64,000 nt of DNA from a virus: positions 1 through 64,000 of IMG/VR virus record IMGVR_UViG_3300048672_000512; one strand, 5' to 3'. Of the stretch, positions 6,155-51,354 are shown piece by piece. The notes beneath the pieces are model-generated. The model was given only the letters and a program-made list of their open reading frames with translations, was not told the DNA's origin and did not search any database. Position numbers and translations under genes: made by a program. Numbering within the stretch: the stretch's first letter is position 1; every line of letters begins with the position of its first letter.

Positions 6155-6529
6155 TCAAGTCAAGTTGTTGGATATGAAAACAATCATGTCCACGATGTCG
6201 GAAAATTCCGCTTTGGTTTGGTTTGTGTTCCAGCTTTTGTATTTGTCTTCAGTCTTGGATATGTCTTCAACGTCTTTCTTCTTCATATCCGATATGCTTC
6301 TTTCAAATATGAACTCGAAGTACTTTGCAGCCTGTATGGCTGTAGCTACTCTGTAAAGATCACACATGACTTCAACTTCAGACAACCCGTAGTGGTTCTT
6401 TATAGCTTCTCTATCTCCAGCTAGCGCTGTTACAGCCTCATGTTGGCAGGTTCTGGATACACAATACCTACACGTATCTACTTCACAGTTATTGCTAGCA
6501 AGTTTCTTGCTTGTAATAGGGCAGATCAC
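6155..6529 (-). CDS. Unknown protein with N-terminal Cys cluster, 124 aa
   Basis: The N-terminal 30 residues hold five Cys and one His (ICPITSKKL, then CEVDTCRYCVSRTCQHE). This looks like a small zinc-binding module. The remainder is helical and charged. The start overlaps the stop of the upstream ruvC-like gene by 4 bases, so the two are probably translated together. Function is unknown. Confidence 0.7.
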   Translation of the reverse strand: MICPITSKKLASNNCEVDTCRYCVSRTCQHEAVTALAGDREAIKNHYGLSEVEVMCDLYRVATAIQAAKYFEFIFERSISDMKKKDVEDISKTEDKYKSWNTNQTKAEFSDIVDMIVFISNNLT

Positions 6530-7134
6530 TTGCGATTCCTTTTCTTTTTACCTGAAGTTTTTGGGCGTATGCCAATGTCTTTGTGAATCAAAGCAGCCTC
6601 GATAACGTGCTCTGGTACAAAATCACCATCATAGGGTTTAAGTCCAGACAGAATGTATGCAGCGTAGCACCCTATCATTGAAGCATCAATAGCATGTGGT
6701 GTTATTCGCACGCCCTTGTAAGCAGCGTAGACGGATTCTAGATCAACGCCGCGCCGCTTCAACTCGTTTTTCCACTGCGAAGCTGGCAGCACCTTTGTTT
6801 CAACGGAAGCAAAGTTGGTTATAAGCGCACCAAGCATTATGTTTACCAGCTCGATGGTGACACCTCCCATTCTGCGAGACATGTACCTTTCAGCAATTAC
6901 ATGCGTTACTTTGTATCGCGTAGCTATATCGTTCAGAGAACCTAAGTACACTCCAAGTTGCTTTGATGGCCTTGACTTCAAGTCTCTCAGTGTGTTGTGT
7001 AGGCACCCGAACTGAAGTACTTTGATTGCCGGTGTTTTCTCATGTTCAAGATCGCATTGAAGAACAGAGTACCCATAATTAGCTGAACCCGGATCACACG
7101 CTAGTATCGTACATCGCATAATTGAATCACTCAC
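6526..7134 (-). CDS. ruvC: RuvC-type Holliday junction resolvase
   Basis: The N-terminus has the RNase H-fold nuclease motif CDPGSANYGYS with the first catalytic Asp. A second acidic site occurs in VIAERYMSRRMGG and a third in TPHAIDASMIGCYA. The length (about 200 aa) fits phage RuvC proteins, which cut four-way junctions during recombination and resolve branched DNA before packaging. Translation may begin at GTG (7134) or at an ATG five codons later (7119). It leads the only minus-strand operon in the window. The tail is basic (TSGKKKRNRK). Confidence 0.75.
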   Translation of the reverse strand: MSDSIMRCTILACDPGSANYGYSVLQCDLEHEKTPAIKVLQFGCLHNTLRDLKSRPSKQLGVYLGSLNDIATRYKVTHVIAERYMSRRMGGVTIELVNIMLGALITNFASVETKVLPASQWKNELKRRGVDLESVYAAYKGVRITPHAIDASMIGCYAAYILSGLKPYDGDFVPEHVIEAALIHKDIGIRPKTSGKKKRNRK

Positions 7135-12080: not shown

Positions 12081-13664
12081 GGGGGGTTCCGCTGGTGCAG
12101 GATGTGGTTACTGGTGTAGTTTATGACGGCACAGGCATTGGGCACGCCCCTGGCAACAGGCTTGGTGCATCAGTAGATAAAAACTATTCTTCATGGCCGG
12201 GTGTTACTATTGATTCGCTAACAAGCACTGCCGGATGGTCTTTGACTCAGACAAATGGATCAATTACAGCAGACACCATGAGCGACGGTTCTGCTTGCCT
12301 GAAATTTTTCGCAAATGGGTCTGGCGGGCCGAATCTGTTTATGACCAAAGATATTGGAGACGTCAGATATGACTCGTCAACAAGCTTGGGGGCGTGGATA
12401 GAGGTTAGCGACCCTGGGATCATTGCATCTATAGAGGTTGTAGTAAGCAATGAGGCGGGTGGAACATTTACTAATTGGCGGATTTACAAGTTTGGCGGAA
12501 GCGGAGGCGCAGTATTCCGTGGGCAGAGATACTTCGCTATTGTCAATACAGCGAATGCTACTTTGGGTGGCGGGTCACCAGCTACCGCAGGCTCCTGGAA
12601 GTCTTTCCGAATAAGAGTTACCTCGTCATACCAAAGCCACGCCGGATGGATAAAGATAAGCAACTTGATGGTTGCGCCTACTACTCGCCCAAAAGTTTGT
12701 ATTACGTTTGACGATGGGTTCGCATCTCAGTATTACGAGGCTTTTAGGTATATGTAAAAGTATGGCATACCTGGAACCCTTGGAGTAACACAAAGTCTGA
12801 TAGGCGTGGCCAACTACTGCACCTTGGCACAGCTACAAGCTATGTATGCGGCCGGATGGTCGGTGGTGCCTCATGCGGTGACACATGTCGGATTCAACGG
12901 CACCGGCAATGCTACGCTACCAAACAGTATTGCACAGGCACAGACACCAGTTGGCGCTGGAGCACTCACGCTGAATGGTTCAGTTGGCACTGCCGCATTT
13001 GATGCTCCGCGTCACGTATGTGTACGTTCGGCAAGTGACCAAGGCAGGATAATCACAATAACGGGGCTCGATGCTACTGGTGGTGCGTTGTCAGAAGATT
13101 TATATACCTGGACTGGTAGTACGCCGGTTCCTACATTAAATCTTTTCAGCAAAGTCAACTCTGTATCTATCGATGCTGCAGCTACTGGAGCAATTACAAT
13201 AGGGCAGTCTCTAAGCATACTAGAAATGACTGCTCAGATTGTAGGGCCGCGAAGCTACGTTATTGCAAATGGTATGCCGAGGGGAGCCTACGACTGGATA
13301 TACCCTAGTGGCGAATTCAACACCTCTTCTACCGCACTGATGTCCTCTTTGGGCATGCGCTCTGCACGTATCGTTGGCGGTCAGGGTCAGTCGCCACAAA
13401 TGGGTGATTTCAGAAAGTATGAGCTGCCAGGGTACGGCGGGGGCGGATCGTCAATGACTGCCGCAACAATGCTTGCATGTGTAGACAATGCAATCGCCGA
13501 GGGCAGAAATCTTGTCATATACTTACACGAGCTAATTCAGGCAGGGTCTCCAACTAGCACAGACACTTGTGAGTGAACTTATATCTTTTATAGACGGGTG
13601 TGCATCTCGTGGGGCAGCAGGTAAGTGTGATTTTATAACGCAAACAGAGATTCCCGTATCTTAG
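12022..13664 (+). pseudogene. Tail protein with polysaccharide deacetylase (NodB) domain, copy A, broken
   Basis: From the ATG at 12022 the anchor reads as far as NGNQG. It then shifts frame at a G6 run (12081-12086). Removing one G restores VPLVQDVVTGVVYDG. The frame continues through a beta-rich region to VCITFDDGF, the metal-binding TFDDG motif of NodB-type deacetylases, and is stopped by TAA at 12755. It resumes with KYGIPGTLGV and VPHAVTHVGF (HxxxH motif). A further +1 shift near 13556 is needed to reach the natural-looking end TLVSELISFIDG at 13664. About 100 residues of beta-type sequence (about 12895-13215) interrupt the NodB fold. Intact relatives remove acetyl groups from surface polysaccharide. 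With three lesions this copy looks decayed. Confidence 0.75.
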
Positions 13665-42222: not shown

Positions 42223-42922
42223 TCCGCGTGCTAGTCTCTGCAAAGCTCCACTGTTCTACGGCAAAGAACTGGAAGGATTCTCGCAAGGAGAATACACGGT
42301 TTTCGTAACGGACATTCGCTACCTTTTGGAAAACGAAAACCTTGTTACTAGCGCAGCGTGGCTAGCTCACAGCTGCCTTCCGTCTAACGTTCGCTACCTA
42401 CATCCTTACCAGTGGCTGCACAGGCTGTACTTAGGTGCGGGTGAGCTATCTGATATTTCAATCAGCGACTTGCATGATCTGCTGACTTCTGAATATATAG
42501 CAGTTGTCAAGACACTAGTCGTAGAAGCTACAGCTGAGTGGTATCTAGCAAACGCGGCAGAGCTTAAGCATCTAGTGCAGGAGTTCAACTGCTCAAGTGC
42601 AAACAGAAGCGCAGCTCGCAGCCGATACCGTACAACCACAAAGCTTCAGTTTGAGTTTGTAGTTACCACAACAATGATAGGCTCTGGTGGCAGGTTTATA
42701 ACCGACTGTACTGAAAAAGAGTATGTAGCTGTTAAACACCTGCAAGACAGCTTTGAAGCCTGCAACGTATCTTTCTACTACAAAGTAGACGCGTGTAACG
42801 TAGTTGTTATCTCTATCAGAAACTCACTAGCAGGAAATACAGCAGTTAGGCTTAGTTCTGTGGGTGGCAAATACAGCAATGACGTGGACTTGACACCATA
42901 CATCGATGACATGAAAAGATGA
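42170..42922 (+). CDS. Unknown protein inside the deazaguanine cluster, about 250 aa
   Basis: The ATG at 42170 has GGAGG at 42160-42164, so I choose it over an upstream GTG. The protein is helical in its first 140 residues (DIRYLLENENLVTSAAWL; AEWYLANAAELKHLVQEF) and beta-rich after residue 155. No family is recognised. It overlaps the transglycosylase start by 4 bases, so it is probably translationally coupled to it. Confidence 0.65.
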   Translation: MNSVPPATVQELLPMASDPRASLCKAPLFYGKELEGFSQGEYTVFVTDIRYLLENENLVTSAAWLAHSCLPSNVRYLHPYQWLHRLYLGAGELSDISISDLHDLLTSEYIAVVKTLVVEATAEWYLANAAELKHLVQEFNCSSANRSAARSRYRTTTKLQFEFVVTTTMIGSGGRFITDCTEKEYVAVKHLQDSFEACNVSFYYKVDACNVVVISIRNSLAGNTAVRLSSVGGKYSNDVDLTPYIDDMKR

Positions 42923-44247
42923 ACAAAAAAGAAAAGGAAGAGCTGCTACGCTCCGGTGTTGGGTATTACCTAGCACCTGCCTGCATAGATAGAATACTGC
43001 CATCGCTTATCAAAGAGGTTGCAGATGGGTCAACAGAGTTGACAGCGTCAACGCAGAAAGAAGGGGCGCTAGCTAAGTACCACCTAACGATGCCTGGAAA
43101 GAGTCTGTATATTGCTTCAGACTCTTACGCTTTGCGAAACACACAGCTTCTGAAATCAAAGAACTTCCACAACTGGCGAGCATTGTCCGACTCACCCTTT
43201 GGTCTGATAAATCACTTTGATAGTCCAGATCGGATTGCAGGTTTCCTGAAGTCTACCAAGTTGATTCTTCAGGACTCTGGTGGTTTTCAGATGGCTACCG
43301 GAAAGACAGACTTTGTGTGTCCTGAGTACGTTCTGGAAAAGCACAGAAACAACGCAGACATCGGAGTGACACTGGATATTCCGATCTACCCGTTCACGCA
43401 TGCTATAACAGCAGAGACAATACCAAGAGTTGCGTCAGTCACTGAAAGAACGAACCGATACTTTCTGAAGTCTGGCTATAGCAGCTTCATGAATCTGAAT
43501 CATGGAAGAAACATCAAGGAGCGTCTGAAGTGGATGGAGAGCACTCAGAAAAAGGCTCCGGGTGTCGCTCTATGCATCGGGGGTTTCATCAGCAACAATC
43601 GCAGAAAGGTGCTACCCAAAGCGTTTGCTGCAACGGTTGTCAAGCTCATTCAAGCGTCTGGGTATAGATACTTTCATGTTTTGGGTGTTAGTACAAGTTG
43701 GCAACAGATCATCCTAGCTTCAATAGCGCACAGGTATAAAGTGCTGATAACCAGCGACAGCACATCCTGGCTTACACTAGCGCGACGCGGCTGCTTGATA
43801 ACGCCTAACTATGACGTGTATCAGCTTCCAAAGTCAAAGCCTGGTCACAAGACAGACAAGCTTTTGAACTGCGTGTGTCCTGCTTGTTCCATCTTTCAGT
43901 ACGAAGCTTTGTACTCGCACAACACGCGGTTTGCTCTTGTGCACAATTTGCTAGCAGCAGACCGAATTGCTTCTCAAATCAACGCAGTTTTTGCTGGCAA
44001 TCCAGACCTGTCTGTAGACTGGGAGTCCAGTCTTGTGAAAGAGAACATGAAAGGCGTTGACGCCTACATAAACGGCGAACGTGTATGGAAGGACACAGAC
44101 GAACTGAAGACCGGAACAACCAAAATTCGAGAGTCGCTGTTCAGCAGCAGCGAAGACTTTGTGCATGCAGATCTGGCAACACAGAAGGCTTCCCTGAACA
44201 GAATTTTGACAGCATACGACAAGTTCTTTGCAGAAAGAGGAATCTAA
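42919..44247 (+). CDS. dpdA: DpdA/TGT-type guanine transglycosylase, 442 aa
   Basis: The protein shows the TGT-fold signatures. LQDSGGFQ carries Asp119. ITSDSTSW carries Asp280. A zinc site is formed by Cys318, Cys320, Cys323 (CVCPAC) and a downstream His (LVHNL). LDIPIYPF and CIGGFIS line the base pocket. tRNA TGT enzymes exchange guanine for preQ bases. Phage relatives called DpdA act on DNA and insert 7-deazaguanines. The QueD/QueE context in a phage favours DpdA. Asp280 as nucleophile and the zinc ligands align with the known enzyme by position. It overlaps the upstream gene by 4 bases. Confidence 0.85.
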   Translation: MNKKEKEELLRSGVGYYLAPACIDRILPSLIKEVADGSTELTASTQKEGALAKYHLTMPGKSLYIASDSYALRNTQLLKSKNFHNWRALSDSPFGLINHFDSPDRIAGFLKSTKLILQDSGGFQMATGKTDFVCPEYVLEKHRNNADIGVTLDIPIYPFTHAITAETIPRVASVTERTNRYFLKSGYSSFMNLNHGRNIKERLKWMESTQKKAPGVALCIGGFISNNRRKVLPKAFAATVVKLIQASGYRYFHVLGVSTSWQQIILASIAHRYKVLITSDSTSWLTLARRGCLITPNYDVYQLPKSKPGHKTDKLLNCVCPACSIFQYEALYSHNTRFALVHNLLAADRIASQINAVFAGNPDLSVDWESSLVKENMKGVDAYINGERVWKDTDELKTGTTKIRESLFSSSEDFVHADLATQKASLNRILTAYDKFFAERGI

Positions 44248-44248
44248 C

Positions 44249-45463
44249 ATGAGCAAGATGTTTTACGTCGGTCTGGAGCGCTATCAGTCTCGCTACAGCT
44301 ATGATCTTGAGAATTGGACGCGCCAAGCCTGTGGTGAAAACTTTCCGCTTGAATTCGTTTCTGTTGGAGACAGCAAGTCGCTACACGCAATCAGCAACGG
44401 TCAGGTTCTTGACGCGTGTATTCGACCGCTACACGCGCTGATGCAGATTTCTGAGTTGATTCAATACGTGCAAGACGGAAGTCTAACTTCCGACGATCTG
44501 ATCTTCTTTGAAGACATGTACCATCCTGGCTTGGATGGTCTAGCTTACGCTCTTGCTCTGAAACGCGTCAAGCCACTTATCGTAGGTCGCTGCCTAGCGC
44601 AGACAATCGATCCAGACGATTTCACGTCAAACCATCCGGTGCTGCGCAAGTGGATGCCCAAGTATGAAAAGATGGCGCTTGACATCTTTGACGTACTGTT
44701 TGTTGCATCGCATGAAATGGTGAGCTTCATGCGAGCGGCTGGTTGGAACGCGCACGTGCTTGTTACCGGTCTTCCATTCAGCACAAAGTGTGTACGTGAA
44801 GTTGCAAACTGCAATCCTGATGGTATGCAGCCTGAAGGCTTTCACTCGCGCAAGCAGCGCGTGGTGTTTGCTTCGCGTCTTGACTGGGAAAAGCAACCCG
44901 TCTTCTTCCTTGAGGTTGCAAGAACAGTGCGTAAGATAGCACCGCATATCGAGTTTGCTTTCTTATCAGGCAAGCCGTGGTCAAGCAACAGACGGAGCAT
45001 TGAAGTTGAGATCCGCAAGGATATCAATGACGGTCTGGTTTCCATGTACGACAACCTTAGCAAGGAAGCGTACTACGATATTCTAAAAGACTCGCGTGTG
45101 CTGTTCAATTGCGCGCTGCAAGACTGGGTTTCAAACACGGTGTCTGAAGCTGATGCTCTTGGCTGCAATCTGGTGTTTCCTGCCTACCGCTCTTTTGTTG
45201 AGTTGTTTGTGGAGCGACAGTCCTGCCTGTACACACCTTGGAATGTAAAACAAGCAGCGGACGCGGTAATCGTAGCTTGTTGCAAGCCGGATGAAAAGAT
45301 CGGAAGTACGGCCGATATGATGTCAGCAATGACAGCTAGCAGCATGACACAACTTGCTGAGCTACTGCAAGATCATATTCAAGGAGAAGGCTTTTCGCAT
45401 GGAACTACGGTTGCTGACCTTGACAGGATGCATTTTAACCGAGCAGACTGGAGCTACACATGA
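44249..45463 (+). CDS. GT-B glycosyltransferase
   Basis: The ATG at 44249 has GAAAGAGG upstream and follows the dpdA stop by one base. The C-terminal half is typical of glycosyltransferase family 4/1: FASRLDWEKQPVFFLEVA, then EFAFLSGKPW, LVSMYDNLSKEAYYDILK, and ALQDWVSNTVSEADALGCN, the nucleotide-sugar-binding E-x7-E type site. The N-terminal half is a Rossmann-like domain with FFEDMYHPGLDGL. No membrane or signal segment is seen, so it is cytoplasmic. Its place between dpdA and queE suggests glycosylation of a modified base in DNA. Confidence 0.8.
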   Translation: MSKMFYVGLERYQSRYSYDLENWTRQACGENFPLEFVSVGDSKSLHAISNGQVLDACIRPLHALMQISELIQYVQDGSLTSDDLIFFEDMYHPGLDGLAYALALKRVKPLIVGRCLAQTIDPDDFTSNHPVLRKWMPKYEKMALDIFDVLFVASHEMVSFMRAAGWNAHVLVTGLPFSTKCVREVANCNPDGMQPEGFHSRKQRVVFASRLDWEKQPVFFLEVARTVRKIAPHIEFAFLSGKPWSSNRRSIEVEIRKDINDGLVSMYDNLSKEAYYDILKDSRVLFNCALQDWVSNTVSEADALGCNLVFPAYRSFVELFVERQSCLYTPWNVKQAADAVIVACCKPDEKIGSTADMMSAMTASSMTQLAELLQDHIQGEGFSHGTTVADLDRMHFNRADWSYT

Positions 45464-46311
45464 TTCCTATCTATGCAGATACAAATGTAGGGCCGAAGTT
45501 CTACACGCGAGCCGATGCGCTGCTTGTACGCCACACGTTCTTCACTATTCAGAGTGAAGGTCCATTCTGCGGGCGGCCTGCTTTCTTCATTCGCCTGGGA
45601 GGATGTAATCTTGGCGACAAGTCCAAGTACTGTTCTTTCTGTGACTCGGATTTCAGAGCAGAGCATTCCACGTATCAAACCTACCAAGAATTGCTTGACA
45701 AGATTCTTGAAGTAAGGGCGCCGCTTGAGTATGACCCGCTTATCGTGATCACGGGCGGTGAGCCGTTTCTGCAGGCTATACAGCTTCAGCGTTTTGTACG
45801 GCACTTGCATGAAAACTTGGACTGGGTTGAAATTCAATTTGAGTCCAACGGAACAATGTTTTCGCACATCCGCAGCCTACTAGCGCAAGCTGTCTACAAC
45901 TCCGTGTCTGTAGTCGTGTCTCCAAAAGCTGCAATGACGGATGATGGCTTACACTTCACGGGCGACCCTGGAGCTTCCTTCACCGACGCTGAAGAATCAG
46001 ACAGCGCATCTGAAGAAACCTGGTTTATTGCAGACAACCTCTATTACAAGTTTGTGGTTTCTGCAGATCCAACTTCAAAGCATAACCAGTTGCCTGCATG
46101 GGTAGACAGGATTCCGCCAGAGAAGGTTTACATATCTGCTATTGCAGAGTACAGGCGTGAACTGAAGCCTGGAGAAACCGCAAACCTGTGGGATGCGACT
46201 CTGATTGATCAGGCGAGTACTTCCAAGAACTACCAATATGCTGCTGAACTTGCAATGGAGAAAGGATTCAACCTGAGTGTACAGAGTCACCTTCTTTGCT
46301 CAATAGAATAA
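45460..46311 (+). CDS. queE: QueE, 7-carboxy-7-deazaguanine synthase
   Basis: The N-terminal segment FFTIQSEGPFCGRPAFFIRL is characteristic of QueE. The radical SAM cluster is CNLGDKSKYCSFC, a Cx8Cx2C spacing. VITGGEPFLQ is the SAM-binding GGE motif and FESNGTMF a further family motif. The reaction turns carboxytetrahydropterin into CDG, from which host or phage QueC makes preQ0. The start overlaps the stop of the glycosyltransferase (ATGA). QueC and FolE are not in this window, so they are elsewhere or come from the host. Confidence 0.9.
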   Translation: MIPIYADTNVGPKFYTRADALLVRHTFFTIQSEGPFCGRPAFFIRLGGCNLGDKSKYCSFCDSDFRAEHSTYQTYQELLDKILEVRAPLEYDPLIVITGGEPFLQAIQLQRFVRHLHENLDWVEIQFESNGTMFSHIRSLLAQAVYNSVSVVVSPKAAMTDDGLHFTGDPGASFTDAEESDSASEETWFIADNLYYKFVVSADPTSKHNQLPAWVDRIPPEKVYISAIAEYRRELKPGETANLWDATLIDQASTSKNYQYAAELAMEKGFNLSVQSHLLCSIE

Positions 46312-46860: not shown

Positions 46861-49365
46861 ATGACCATGTTTACCGCCTACTTTGAAACTGGACAGCTGC
46901 GCTACCGTAGTGATCTTGAAGTCCTAAACCTTTCTGAGGTGGAAGACTTCTACAAGCTAGTGCCAGTATGTTCTAGAAACTGGAAGTCCTCCGAGTTCCG
47001 TCTTCTGGTTGTTGTGGAAGCTGTAGATCGTCAAGACCTGAAGACAGGAAAGCTTCTGTCTATGGACCTTGAAAAGGAGCGCGGTTCCTCCTACTACGCA
47101 AACACAATGACTGCACTTCTACCTGGGCTGCTTGACGCCTCATGGAAGATGTACACAGACTGGCTTGCAGTAGACAATGAAACACCTGAAGTTTCTGAAG
47201 TAGCTCTTGGTGTTGTCAATTTCAACGCTGCAAAGACGTACACGCTTGAGCCTACAGCAAGAAAGGCGATGCACAAGAAGTTTGCGGATCGTGTTATACA
47301 CGTGATCGATAGCATGAAACCCACGCATGTCTTTGTGTGTGGAGACACTGCTACCGTCAACCTGTTGGAATTGCTATCCGAACAGGATGTTCCTCACTGC
47401 GAAGTGAAGCGTGGCTGGGTTTTTGACCTAACGCACAAGAACCACAAGTTCAAGCTGGTTCCATCGCTGGATCTTGAAACGCTGTACAACCCAAAGGCTA
47501 ACGAGTCTGCAGATGACGACGACGGCGACTCAGACATGGCGGACAAGTACGCAACTGCAGATCTGCTGTACTTTGTAGGTCGCAACCTTGTAAACCTGTT
47601 TGCTGGACGGCACCTGTACTCTCTTAAGAGGCTGCGTCCAAAGGCCGTGTATGTAGACACCGTGGAACAGTTTGACAAGGTCATGGACCTTGTTGAATCT
47701 CCGGACGTTGAATATGTTGGCACAGACACGGAAGGTGCTAGCCTGAATGTAGTGACCAACAAGATATTTTCTGTGCAGTTTGCTGTAGACACAAAGGTTG
47801 GCTATGTCATACCGCTGTTGCATCCAGATACGCCGTTTGATGGAGAAGAGCTGAAGTATGTTTTCAAGCGACTTCGGAAGTTCTTTGGTGCTACCAAAGA
47901 GGCAAGCCTGAAGACGCTGGTGTACATCAACGGCAAGTTTGACCTGCGCTTTCTACGTGTGCAACTAGGCATTCCTGTCATTCTGCATCGCACCTATGAG
48001 GTTAACGCCGGCGAACAGCTTCTGGATGAAAACATTGGCTTGTTTGGTGGTGCTGATTCTGGAGGTCTGCGCTTTCGCAAGGATAACGACAAGGTCCGCA
48101 CCTCGTATCAAGGCCTCATGAATGCTCTGTGCCTGTACGAGAACGACGCTTACTACAATCTGCAGTTTTCAAAAGAAGACCGTGGAAACATGGGTGCGCA
48201 ACCGTTGAATGATCCAGACGTTCTCTACTACTGCGCGCATGACTCTGTAGCTGTCTTAGCCATGGCACGCATGCAGATACGTAGAGCTAAACATACATTC
48301 GTGCGTCCGAACTTTGACAGCAAGAAGCTGGTTCCATATTACAAGTATTTCATTCGGCACGTTGTTCTACAGATGGGGGCTACGGTTCAAGGTCTTTCCT
48401 ACATGGAGCAGAATGGCTCGCCCATTGACCTTGAATACCTGACCATTCTTGCTGGAAAGAAGTCACCTTTGCTTGCTGAAATCAATCAGCTGAACAACGA
48501 CATGCGGGCCTTCCCTAGCGTAGCTGCAACAGAGAAGCTGCTGTTGAAGTCTATGGGGCGCTCCGGTGGTGGTTTGCTTGGTTCCGTTGGAACTGCTGGC
48601 ATGTTCGACATATCTAAGCGGGATCACTTGCACAAGCTGTTCTACGAAGTGATGAAGCTTAAAGTGGTGTCGCATACAGGCGGTGGTGCCGTAGCAATCG
48701 ACAAAGAGTTCATAAACACCTACAGCGCGGATTACAAGGAAGTAGCAACCTTTGGTCAGTACACCAAGGTAACGAAGCTGATGTCAACCTACGTCAAAGG
48801 GTGGTTGAAGAAGATTCAAGTTTCGGTAGACGACCTAGCTAGAAGTGTTCTGAGTCCTGGCTTTGGATTCTTTACCATTGTCACTGGACGCCTGAACAGT
48901 TTCAAACCTTCTTTGCAGAACGTACCGTCACGCGGAGGTACGGCAAAGATAATCAAGCGAATGTTTCGAGCACCCAAGGGTTTTCTTAGCGTCAATTTCG
49001 ATTACAGCGCGAATGAAATCCGTGGCGGCGCTATCCTTGCAAAGGATGATAAGCTAGCCGGAGCTTTTCAAGATGGTATCGATCTACGTAAACAGTGGAT
49101 TGTAAAACCTTCAGCTGAACTTGCAGCCAGTCTAGCAACGCGCGGTGACGTCCATATTCAGAACGTCAAACGCCTGTTTGGTGTTTGGGTTGCAAAGTCC
49201 GACCCTCGCCGTAATGCCATTAAGGCAGTTGTGTTCGGTCTTATGTATGGAAAGGGTGCAGGAACCCTCGGTAAGGACTTGAAGAAGGACGCTCTGAATG
49301 AGGCTATGGATAAGCGTCGCAGTATCGTCAAACAGATACGGGAACTTGAAAAAGAAGTAAGCTGA
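46861..49365 (+). CDS. polA: Family A DNA polymerase, N-terminal piece (exonuclease + motifs A and B)
   Basis: This 834-residue protein has an N-terminal region of about 250 residues with HVFVCGDTATVNLLELL, loosely like uracil-DNA-glycosylase folds. A 3'-5' exonuclease domain follows (Asp289/Glu291 in GTDTEG; YINGKFDLRF; YYCAHDS). Then come the polymerase palm and fingers. Motif A is VNFDYSANEIRGG with Asp714. Motif B is RRNAIKAVVFGLMYG with Lys788, Phe792 and Tyr796. The protein ends in a charged helix (KRRSIVKQIRELEKEVS). Motif C is missing and is supplied by the gene at 50413. No ribosome-binding site is visible between the terminator and the start. Confidence 0.9.
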   Translation: MTMFTAYFETGQLRYRSDLEVLNLSEVEDFYKLVPVCSRNWKSSEFRLLVVVEAVDRQDLKTGKLLSMDLEKERGSSYYANTMTALLPGLLDASWKMYTDWLAVDNETPEVSEVALGVVNFNAAKTYTLEPTARKAMHKKFADRVIHVIDSMKPTHVFVCGDTATVNLLELLSEQDVPHCEVKRGWVFDLTHKNHKFKLVPSLDLETLYNPKANESADDDDGDSDMADKYATADLLYFVGRNLVNLFAGRHLYSLKRLRPKAVYVDTVEQFDKVMDLVESPDVEYVGTDTEGASLNVVTNKIFSVQFAVDTKVGYVIPLLHPDTPFDGEELKYVFKRLRKFFGATKEASLKTLVYINGKFDLRFLRVQLGIPVILHRTYEVNAGEQLLDENIGLFGGADSGGLRFRKDNDKVRTSYQGLMNALCLYENDAYYNLQFSKEDRGNMGAQPLNDPDVLYYCAHDSVAVLAMARMQIRRAKHTFVRPNFDSKKLVPYYKYFIRHVVLQMGATVQGLSYMEQNGSPIDLEYLTILAGKKSPLLAEINQLNNDMRAFPSVAATEKLLLKSMGRSGGGLLGSVGTAGMFDISKRDHLHKLFYEVMKLKVVSHTGGGAVAIDKEFINTYSADYKEVATFGQYTKVTKLMSTYVKGWLKKIQVSVDDLARSVLSPGFGFFTIVTGRLNSFKPSLQNVPSRGGTAKIIKRMFRAPKGFLSVNFDYSANEIRGGAILAKDDKLAGAFQDGIDLRKQWIVKPSAELAASLATRGDVHIQNVKRLFGVWVAKSDPRRNAIKAVVFGLMYGKGAGTLGKDLKKDALNEAMDKRRSIVKQIRELEKEVS

Positions 49366-49398
49366 GCTACCAACCCAAGAAATCACACGGAGAGTAAG

Positions 49399-50412
49399 AT
49401 GCCAAATGCAGGAAGTCAAACTAGTCAGACTAGTCACGATGTAACGATACGCAAGATGTTGGATGGGTGCGAGCTTCTTGTAGACGCTTACAGCCTGACT
49501 TGCGTGGATCCAGTCGTACCGTCGCCGCACGGAGCCTCCTATATGTTTGTGGATGGCACGTGGGTAGGCGCTAGTACAAGCATAACCGGAACCGTTGGAC
49601 GCAAAGCGCGTGTTATTCCACACCAAGGATCAGCACCGCCGCGTTCAAACATCACAACAGAAGTCCTTGCAACAGGAGCAAATACAAACTGCACCGTTGA
49701 AGTATGTATTCCAGGTCAGCTATGGTGGCATGGTCAGAGCATAGAGTTTGCTATTGAACCGTTTTCAGTTCTTGTTCTATCAATGACTGGTACTGGAAAG
49801 TGCGATCTGAGAATCACTGGAAGTGGCTACCAGTCCGTAACAAGCGGGCTTGGTGGCTCTGCTCGCTACAACGTATCTGCAAACAATCCACGAATCACAG
49901 ACATTCGCTCCGGCCCAGCTGTTCATACGTTCACTGCGGGTCAGGCTGGTATGGTGATTGTTCTGTGCTATGACACAATGCTGATAGTGGGACCACCAAC
50001 AGCACCTGCGGGCACGATAACGCATAGCTTCCAGCCAGTAAGCTCCAGCACATACACTGGATATAAAGGCGCTGCGTCATCTACTACTGTCAAGACGGAA
50101 GACAAGGTAAAGATCAACCTTGATAAGCTACCGTCGCATATTAAAGACAGGTATAACGCTACTATTGTTAGAAAGCTGCAAGAGTACATAACAGCGTACG
50201 AGACTGGATCTGGAATTACGCTTGTGCCAAATACCATGTCAGTAACGCAGAGTAAAGATGACCCGCCTCGCACGTTTCATGCTTCCTTTCGTTCTCATGG
50301 ATACGACAAAGAAGTGTTCAATGGACTAGACGCCTTTCTTCTTGTGAAGGGTTATGCAGGAAGTAGATACGACGTTGCTTCCTCCCTGATAGATCTTGAC
50401 TTTGAGGTGTGA
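49399..50412 (+). CDS. Beta-rich structural-type protein lying between the polymerase halves, 337 aa
   Basis: The N-terminal 40 residues are polar with an SQTSQTS repeat. The middle is Gly/Thr/Ser rich with strands such as EFAIEPFSVLVLSMTG and KCDLRITGSGYQS. The C-terminal 110 residues (IKDRYNATIVRKLQEYI) are alpha/beta. It carries no nuclease or intein motif, so it does not look like a homing element. GGAG lies seven bases upstream. Its stop codon is directly followed by the ATG of the polymerase C-terminal piece. A virion protein or polymerase-associated factor is possible. Confidence 0.7.
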   Translation: MPNAGSQTSQTSHDVTIRKMLDGCELLVDAYSLTCVDPVVPSPHGASYMFVDGTWVGASTSITGTVGRKARVIPHQGSAPPRSNITTEVLATGANTNCTVEVCIPGQLWWHGQSIEFAIEPFSVLVLSMTGTGKCDLRITGSGYQSVTSGLGGSARYNVSANNPRITDIRSGPAVHTFTAGQAGMVIVLCYDTMLIVGPPTAPAGTITHSFQPVSSSTYTGYKGAASSTTVKTEDKVKINLDKLPSHIKDRYNATIVRKLQEYITAYETGSGITLVPNTMSVTQSKDDPPRTFHASFRSHGYDKEVFNGLDAFLLVKGYAGSRYDVASSLIDLDFEV

Positions 50413-51354
50413 ATGACAACCGAAACAGAGTCACCTAAAGCAAAACTCGCAAGGCTGCGCACCGAGCTGAAAGACATAGACAGCAAGATAGAAGAGATTG
50501 AGGCAAAGGATTGGAAAGCGTTTGCGCAAGAAACCGTTGAAAAGTTCTATGGTGAGTTTGACGCTACGCATCACTATCTGGAAAACTGCGCTGACCACAT
50601 TCTGACAGACATGCACATCATGTCTCCAGTCGGGCGACGACGTAACATGTGGCGAGTTCTTACCGGGCGTCCCGGTATTCTTGCAGCTGCGCAGCGTCGA
50701 GGCAAGAACGCTCCGATTCAAGGCTTTGCTTCCGAGCTTGGTTGTGCAGCGGGTACGCTCATTATTGAGGAGCTTTATCTCTTTCTTCGACGCACACGTA
50801 AGTGGAATTGGCAGTTTCTGAATGACGTTGGTTTGTCTGTGATCGGCTACCTTCTGTCTCTGTACAACCGAGCGGTTCATGACGCTAACTATTACACGGT
50901 TCGCTACGAAACCATGATTCCACACATTCATATCATGCAGCACCAAGCCACCTACGGCGTAGCTCGCTGGTATGAAGAAAACTTTGACATCAAGTTCAAC
51001 GTAGACCCGGAAATCGAACTTGACTTCTCGGCTACTGCCGACAAGACGCACACATGGAACTGGGCGCTACACGGAACCGATGGCATAAAGACCAGTGGTG
51101 ACAGCCTGGATACGTGCCTGTTCAATTCTCTTGTTGATCAAGTGAAGCTGAAACAGATCACCAGCTCCAAGGAACTCAAGAGAATTGTGAAGGTGATCTG
51201 TGCACCCTGGGAAGATCAGGAAATGCGTGACTACCTGAATCAGAAGTACCCACTGTTGGGTGTCACTGATCTTGATACACAGATTGAAGGTTTCCTTGAA
51301 TCGTTCAACGCAAAGATTCAGGCCTTCTGTTCCGAACCAAAGAACTTTGAATAA
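50413..51354 (+). CDS. polA: Family A DNA polymerase, C-terminal piece (motif C)
   Basis: The 313-residue protein starts with a long charged helix (LARLRTELKDIDSKIEEIEA). It continues with sequence typical of the polymerase I palm: EKFYGEFDATHHYLENC, SPVGRRRNMWRV, KNAPIQGFASELG and AVHDANYY, in which His156 and Asp157 are motif C. These elements normally follow the O helix in one chain. The two pieces must associate to give activity, perhaps through the charged helices at the break. The C-terminal 110 residues are unassigned. Confidence 0.85.
   Translation: MTTETESPKAKLARLRTELKDIDSKIEEIEAKDWKAFAQETVEKFYGEFDATHHYLENCADHILTDMHIMSPVGRRRNMWRVLTGRPGILAAAQRRGKNAPIQGFASELGCAAGTLIIEELYLFLRRTRKWNWQFLNDVGLSVIGYLLSLYNRAVHDANYYTVRYETMIPHIHIMQHQATYGVARWYEENFDIKFNVDPEIELDFSATADKTHTWNWALHGTDGIKTSGDSLDTCLFNSLVDQVKLKQITSSKELKRIVKVICAPWEDQEMRDYLNQKYPLLGVTDLDTQIEGFLESFNAKIQAFCSEPKNFE

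Follow-up and report, generated by a model that had tools for sequence, protein, structure and literature searches.

In Aeromonas phages 25 and 44RR the replicative DNA polymerase is divided between two genes, gp43A and gp43B, and the two products from phage 25 co-purify and are active (PMC2988022). Here we describe a polymerase that is likewise divided, in the virus record IMGVR_UViG_3300048672_000512 of IMG/VR; the stretch analysed, called the window, comprises the first 64,000 nucleotides of this record, which has 178,048 bases and is possibly a fragment. Two genes in the window, PolN and PolC, very probably specify a single functional replicative DNA polymerase of family A that consists of two subunits. 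In contrast, gp43A/gp43B is a family B enzyme, with which a Seg endonuclease or untranslated sequence is associated (PMC2988022). Similarly, the family B polymerase of Pseudomonas phage MIJ3 is carried on two polypeptides with a gene between them, as in the window, but its halves have split intein motifs and their ligation is expected (PMC6892783), and no such motifs were seen at the window break. A split PolIII alpha has also been reported in jumbo-phage genomics (PMC7824862).

Among family A enzymes, the polymerase of the Methylophilales (OM43) phages MEP401 and MEP402 is also split; an uncharacterised small gene separates the parts, and an intron was suspected by the authors (PMC10580990). 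However, that break precedes motif A, motifs A, B and C stand together in the second protein, and the polymerase lineage is distant. In phages Goe2 and Grass (SPO1-like, Bastille-like), the family A coding region is interrupted, in Grass just after motif B, but by group I introns with endonuclease genes, and the exons are joined in RNA, unlike in the window (PMC11878797). A search of the open-access literature gave no family A polymerase in which the split separates motif B from motif C, and no case in which fission had recurred at a single site. Split phage polymerases as such are known; for the window split, the break site, the separation of the catalytic aspartates and the recurrence look new.

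Catalytic residues on two polypeptides

The genes, junctions and motifs of the locus are listed here; the helices O1 and O2 are named as in Pol I.

46861..49365, plus strand: PolN, 834 residues, comprising an N-terminal region, the 3'-5' exonuclease, the thumb, the motif A strand of the palm, and the fingers helices O and O1 (motif B)
49000..49017, plus strand: motif A, D714-E719 of PolN, with D and E invariant among 39 aligned polymerases
49210..49248, plus strand: motif B (O helix), R784, K788, F792 and Y796 of PolN, invariant in the same alignment
49363..49398, plus strand: TGA stop of PolN and a 33-nucleotide gap, with a Shine-Dalgarno-like GGAG at 49389-49392
49399..50412, plus strand: intervening orphan open reading frame (ORF), 337 residues, in frame with PolN and PolC
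50404..50412, plus strand: Shine-Dalgarno-like GAGGTG and TGA stop of the intervening ORF, with the ATG of PolC immediately after
50413..51354, plus strand: PolC, 313 residues, from the O2 helix onward, with the GRRR/NAPIQG region, motif C (His-Asp) and C-terminal region
50878..50883, plus strand: motif C, H156-D157 of PolC, invariant in the same alignment

The Pfam profile DNA_pol_A is matched by PolN at profile positions 26-232 (E-value 2.8e-29) and by PolC at 236-308 (E-value 9.8e-6), that is, as consecutive pieces of one domain. PHROG 17 is divided in the same way (476-1088 covered by PolN, 1090-1230 by PolC), and PolN also matches DNA_pol_A_exo1 (E-value 1e-5). We traced 17 catalytic positions through the alignment of 39 polymerases; all are intact in PolN plus PolC, and nearly all are invariant. 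The DnaQ-like 3'-5' exonuclease residues (D289/E291, D361 and Y457/D461) and motifs A and B lie in PolN, and PolC holds R95, N99 and Q103 together with H156/D157 of motif C. Thus, the residues of motifs A, B and C and of the exonuclease identify a family A (Pol I-like) enzyme by its sequence, and the motif A and motif C aspartates are encoded on different polypeptides. An earlier note on this DNA had assigned the exonuclease and motifs A and B to an 834-residue protein and motif C to a separate 313-residue protein, and both the ORFs and the residues are confirmed. It had named a complete second polymerase in the genome, with these parts inactive, as a finding that would refute the split enzyme; the 178-kb record shows no detectable further polymerase of family A, of family B or of the PolIII-alpha type. 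PolN and PolC are therefore two genes, each with its own start and stop and neither with a second copy in the record.

PolN, the intervening ORF and PolC all lie in one frame, parted by TGA codons only, and reading TGA through opens a frame of 1497 residues. The parts could in principle be joined in expression, either by readthrough of both TGA codons into a polyprotein or by a splicing element that removes the middle, and the family A polymerase of Bacillus phage Grass does have an intron just after motif B. However, three adjacent genes share a frame by chance in about 1/9 of cases, and the common frame is probably due to chance because TGA is the ordinary stop of the window, ending 33 of its 58 genes, many of them tightly overlapping. 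Furthermore, an ATG and a Shine-Dalgarno-like site are present for the intervening ORF and again for PolC, the parts of one related split enzyme (L044, see below) are in different frames, and the noncoding sequence (33 nucleotides at the first junction and 0 at the second) is too short to hold the core of a group I or II intron. The gathering threshold of Rfam misses the introns of Goe2 and Grass, and a lax threshold with a control was used instead; at this threshold the control intron was found in Goe2 and weakly in Grass, and none was found in the window or in a related locus, L023, described below. By eye, no intein motifs or intein-like sequence are present at the broken ends, which align to the hairpin of unsplit relatives and leave no spare intein-sized domain. 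Joined expression is thus very unlikely; the earlier note had named joined transcripts as a refutation, and neither an intron nor an intein was found to connect the parts. A reading of TGA as tryptophan throughout the window was also considered and rejected on the same count of genes that end in TGA.

Unsplit relatives and the hairpin at the break

An unsplit homologue was found by tblastn in Achromobacter phage Motura (37% identity), in Burkholderia phages BcepSaruman and BcepSauron (35%) and in more distant large phages. The polymerase is a single gene of about 1056 codons in the large myophages BcepSaruman, BcepSauron and Motura, as opposed to two genes in the window, but it is homologous over the full length of PolN plus PolC, has the same domain order and shares the surroundings of motif C (VHDANYY). 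Across 94% of PolN, identity to unsplit relatives is 35-42%, PolC has 34-41% identity to their C-terminal region, and every unsplit relative that was read, including these three and many others, aligns continuously across the break.

The split site is within the fingers, between helices O1 and O2, which refines the position given in the earlier note, between the O helix and the next palm elements. At this site many unsplit relatives have an extra charged segment, with 63-112 residues between fixed anchors compared with 29 where this hairpin is lacking. It is present and uncut in BcepSaruman and BcepSauron, whereas Motura has none. The PolN tail aligns to the first (ascending) arm of the hairpin in unsplit relatives and the PolC head to the second (descending) arm, and the charged helices that the earlier note had seen at both broken ends correspond to these two arms.

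49279..49362, plus strand: ascending arm, the charged C-terminal tail of PolN (KKDALNEAMDKRRSIVKQIRELEKEVS), which aligns with unsplit relatives and is 52% charged
50434..50514, plus strand: descending arm, at the N terminus of PolC, a charged helix in which six residues form a perfect 3-4 hydrophobic repeat

PolN ends in LEKEVS and its stop codon, and PolC begins with MTTETES. The heptad run of six in the PolC head has a shuffle p of 0.002, and in L044 there are heptad runs of seven on both hairpin arms. The hairpin is a solvent-exposed, length-variable, charged helical seam.

The region from PolN residue 475 to the end of PolC was modelled with AlphaFold2 as one chain, in which the two TGA codons were read as tryptophan and the intervening ORF served as a tether; the alignment input had 29 rows from related contigs, unsplit relatives included. 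The predicted local distance difference test score (pLDDT) of the model is about 85-98 in the polymerase parts and below 50 in the intervening ORF. The end of PolN is modelled as one uninterrupted helix that runs to the stop (positions 326-363), and PolC starts with a helix (718-741, pLDDT about 95). Foldseek matched the model over both parts to Bst DNA polymerase I (E-value about 4e-12) and also to the Motura polymerase. Structure prediction of the pair, which the earlier note had put forward as a check, thus gives one predicted Pol I fold with long helices at the broken ends, for a single joined chain, and on this model PolN and PolC are compatible with one Pol I right-hand fold.

Recurrence of the break in related contigs

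Scans of viral contigs with PolC or the intervening ORF as single-protein queries gave no relatives, and alignment queries were needed. Alignment-based scans (in one of which the best 80 of 289 relatives were kept), followed by a polymerase-domain hidden Markov model over 200 loci, returned many unsplit relatives as well as at least four further metagenomic contigs that are cut in the same hairpin; the earlier note had proposed a search for either form.

L044 (IMGVR_UViG_3300047557_001921): TGATG stop/start overlap, with the parts in different frames
L078 (3300013296_000018): TAATG stop/start overlap
L102 (3300030503_000315): 1-nucleotide gap between the parts
L104 (3300022872_000001): a 135-residue ORF and an overlapping 81-residue ORF between the parts

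Three of the five same-site splits therefore have no gene between the parts, and the window and L104 carry genes there. The overlap or 1-nucleotide spacing of stop and start codons in L044, L078 and L102 suggests translational coupling. In L104 (positions 6236-6876), the 81-residue ORF is membrane-like, and no relative of the 135-residue ORF turned up among the loci that were retrieved.

In maximum-likelihood trees, the closest branches to the window enzyme are L028 and, next, L017 (support 95-98), neither of which is split. L044 stands at the base, L104 groups with the unsplit L033, L029 and L030 (support 100), and L078 and L102 group with the unsplit L076 (99), so that the five split enzymes fall into four lineages among unsplit relatives. 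A single origin of all five splits was rejected, as placing them in one clade costs 523 log-likelihood units, and every pairwise grouping of split lineages was rejected too, at a cost of 118-279 units (approximately unbiased test, p ≤2.5e-4). One ancestral fission would need many re-fusions, and for this reason parsimony, applied to these sequences, favours at least four independent fissions at one site. Acquisition of a foreign C-terminal half was rejected as well for the window and for L078/L102: the trees of the two halves agree on these, with the window beside L017 and L028 and the L078/L102 pair beside L076 in both. The placement of L104 in the tree of the C-terminal half has low support (54).

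The two members of the pair L078 and L102 have a protein identity of 76% in the N-terminal and 74% in the C-terminal part. Synonymous divergence (pS) between them is 0.90 and 0.84, respectively, which is near saturation, and nonsynonymous divergence (pN) is 0.17 and 0.19. As pN is far below pS in each part, both halves have been kept functional, held under purifying selection since the split. For the window enzyme, maintenance by selection was judged from conserved residues alone, and the pN/pS values are those of the L078/L102 pair. These results bear on whether the polymerase is a broken remnant in a phage that relies on the polymerase of its host or on another phage polymerase. Phages can use host polymerases, and a record that is possibly incomplete may hide a second one. 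However, the 17 positions checked are all intact, the split pair L078/L102 is under selection in both halves, a primase gene directly follows the polymerase (and is close by in relatives too), and, in addition to the lack of another polymerase in the window record, the records of L102, L104, L078, L044 and L023 gave no further family A polymerase that is complete. That the enzyme is a remnant is most improbable.

The same contigs speak to the quality of the sequence. The window arrangement was observed once, in a single metagenomic contig, and could have arisen if the intervening ORF had been stitched into an intact gene by an assembly or sequencing error; furthermore, a conserved tail gene in the window also has an in-frame stop (TAA, 12755-12757). 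Against such an artefact, each junction has the clean borders of a start, a Shine-Dalgarno-like site and a stop, the base composition of the intervening ORF (GC content 0.485) matches its neighbours, with a lower value at third codon positions (0.43), and the break position is shared with four other contigs from different metagenomes, two of which have diverged versions of the same ends. These two, L078 and L102, both have a first part that ends in KKAA and a second that begins with M(S/A)EVKE, despite a protein identity of about 75%, and sequencing error is thereby ruled out for them. An artefact in the window is extremely unlikely. The tail gene (12095-13576, plus strand) encodes a tail-like protein that has a motif of the polysaccharide-deacetylase type (ITFDDG), and its frame is open beyond the TAA, which may be a nonsense mutation, a recoding signal or an assembly error.

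Origin of the break and the proposed two-subunit enzyme

Searches of Pfam, NCBIfam, PDB, phage records, viral contigs and the records of the 39 relatives gave no match to the intervening ORF. Its best E-value against PHROGs is 0.06, its best similarities to other window genes are not significant, and when folded alone it gives a pLDDT of 34. We infer that this gene is cargo.

Several related loci carry insertions at other places. In L023 (6959-11255), the polymerase is cut between motif A and GDVHIQN, in a lineage-specific insert, by a DUF7487 gene that resembles a PD-(D/E)XK-type mobile nuclease, which makes it an endonuclease-type split at a different site. In L033 (4166-7837) and L044 (4056-6956), the polymerase contains in-frame HNH_3 and AP2 domains, as in homing endonucleases, which stand between motif A and GDVHI and leave it unbroken. 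Finally, the frame of a distant family A polymerase in L131 (4090-7450) is broken in motif A (LVECD, then YSQIELR about 0.8 kb further on), probably by an intron.

The clade is therefore targeted by such elements, and there are phage precedents (PMC2988022) for a break caused by a homing endonuclease or a similar mobile gene, of which the intervening ORF would be the intact or remnant form. This proposal concerns how the split arose and does not conflict with a two-part enzyme that works. However, the intervening ORF has no endonuclease match, and no endonuclease is needed for the split, since three other same-site splits are gene-free and the ORFs of L104 are unrelated. An endonuclease at the window break may have been lost or may be very divergent, and an inserted gene may have split the polymerase and afterwards been lost in some lineages; overall, we regard an origin by a mobile gene as possible but doubtful.

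Just upstream of the polymerase, the window also contains a tRNA-guanine transglycosylase (TGT)-like gene of the DpdA type (42919-44247) and a QueE-like radical S-adenosylmethionine gene (45460-46311), and QueE or related genes stand beside the polymerase in several relatives. The TGT-like and QueE-like genes suggest 7-deazaguanine modification of the phage DNA.

With regard to the assembled enzyme, we propose that PolN and PolC would pack together into a single Pol I fold of which each forms one half, PolN supplying the metal-binding aspartate of motif A and PolC that of motif C. The hairpin arms of the two proteins would pair and so clasp the halves together, and the earlier note had likewise proposed that helices at the broken ends could rejoin the parts. 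We read the split as a genuine gene fission at the hairpin, which tolerates cutting and was broken independently at least four times in the clade. In the simplest order, fission would have come first and other genes would have entered the junction later, in the window lineage and in L104. A man-made counterpart is the SynZIP split T7 RNA polymerase, an RNA polymerase cut into two proteins, in which antiparallel helices hold the broken ends together, like the design proposed here; antiparallel zippers at the cut gave more than 10-fold more activity at low expression (PMC4299498). By analogy, nature appears to have reached the same design, and reassembly of the window halves is likely, because gp43A/gp43B and the zipper-joined T7 RNA polymerase provide precedents.

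Several points weigh against this proposal. The 178-kb record may be incomplete, which weakens the absence of another polymerase. The nearest unsplit relatives of the window enzyme, L028 and L017, are both without the hairpin, and the hairpin and the split may therefore have arisen together in the window lineage. Heptad periodicity is weak in the PolN tail (shuffle p 0.10). The one-chain model in part presupposes that the halves dock, because the chain was artificially joined and unsplit relatives were in the alignment. Finally, we infer the physical association of PolN and PolC, their enzymatic activity and the role of the helices as a clasp.

A further suggestion, which we consider unlikely, is that the hairpin is an evolved docking handle and that fission has been favoured and not merely tolerated, since a polymerase in two pieces can be regulated. 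If this were true, regulation could act through the amount of the fingers/motif-C subunit that is made, through subunit exchange, or through a third protein that binds, for example the one encoded by the intervening gene, and these phages would be the equivalent in nature of split polymerases joined by zippers.

Few enzymes are as constrained as a replicative DNA polymerase, and a cut between its two catalytic aspartates that recurs in one hairpin, in at least four independent lineages, shows where its fold can be divided and rejoined. The split enzymes offer natural parts for split-polymerase engineering. Furthermore, they make it testable why phages often split their replication genes, whether by neutral fission at tolerant sites, as traces of mobile genes, or for regulation.

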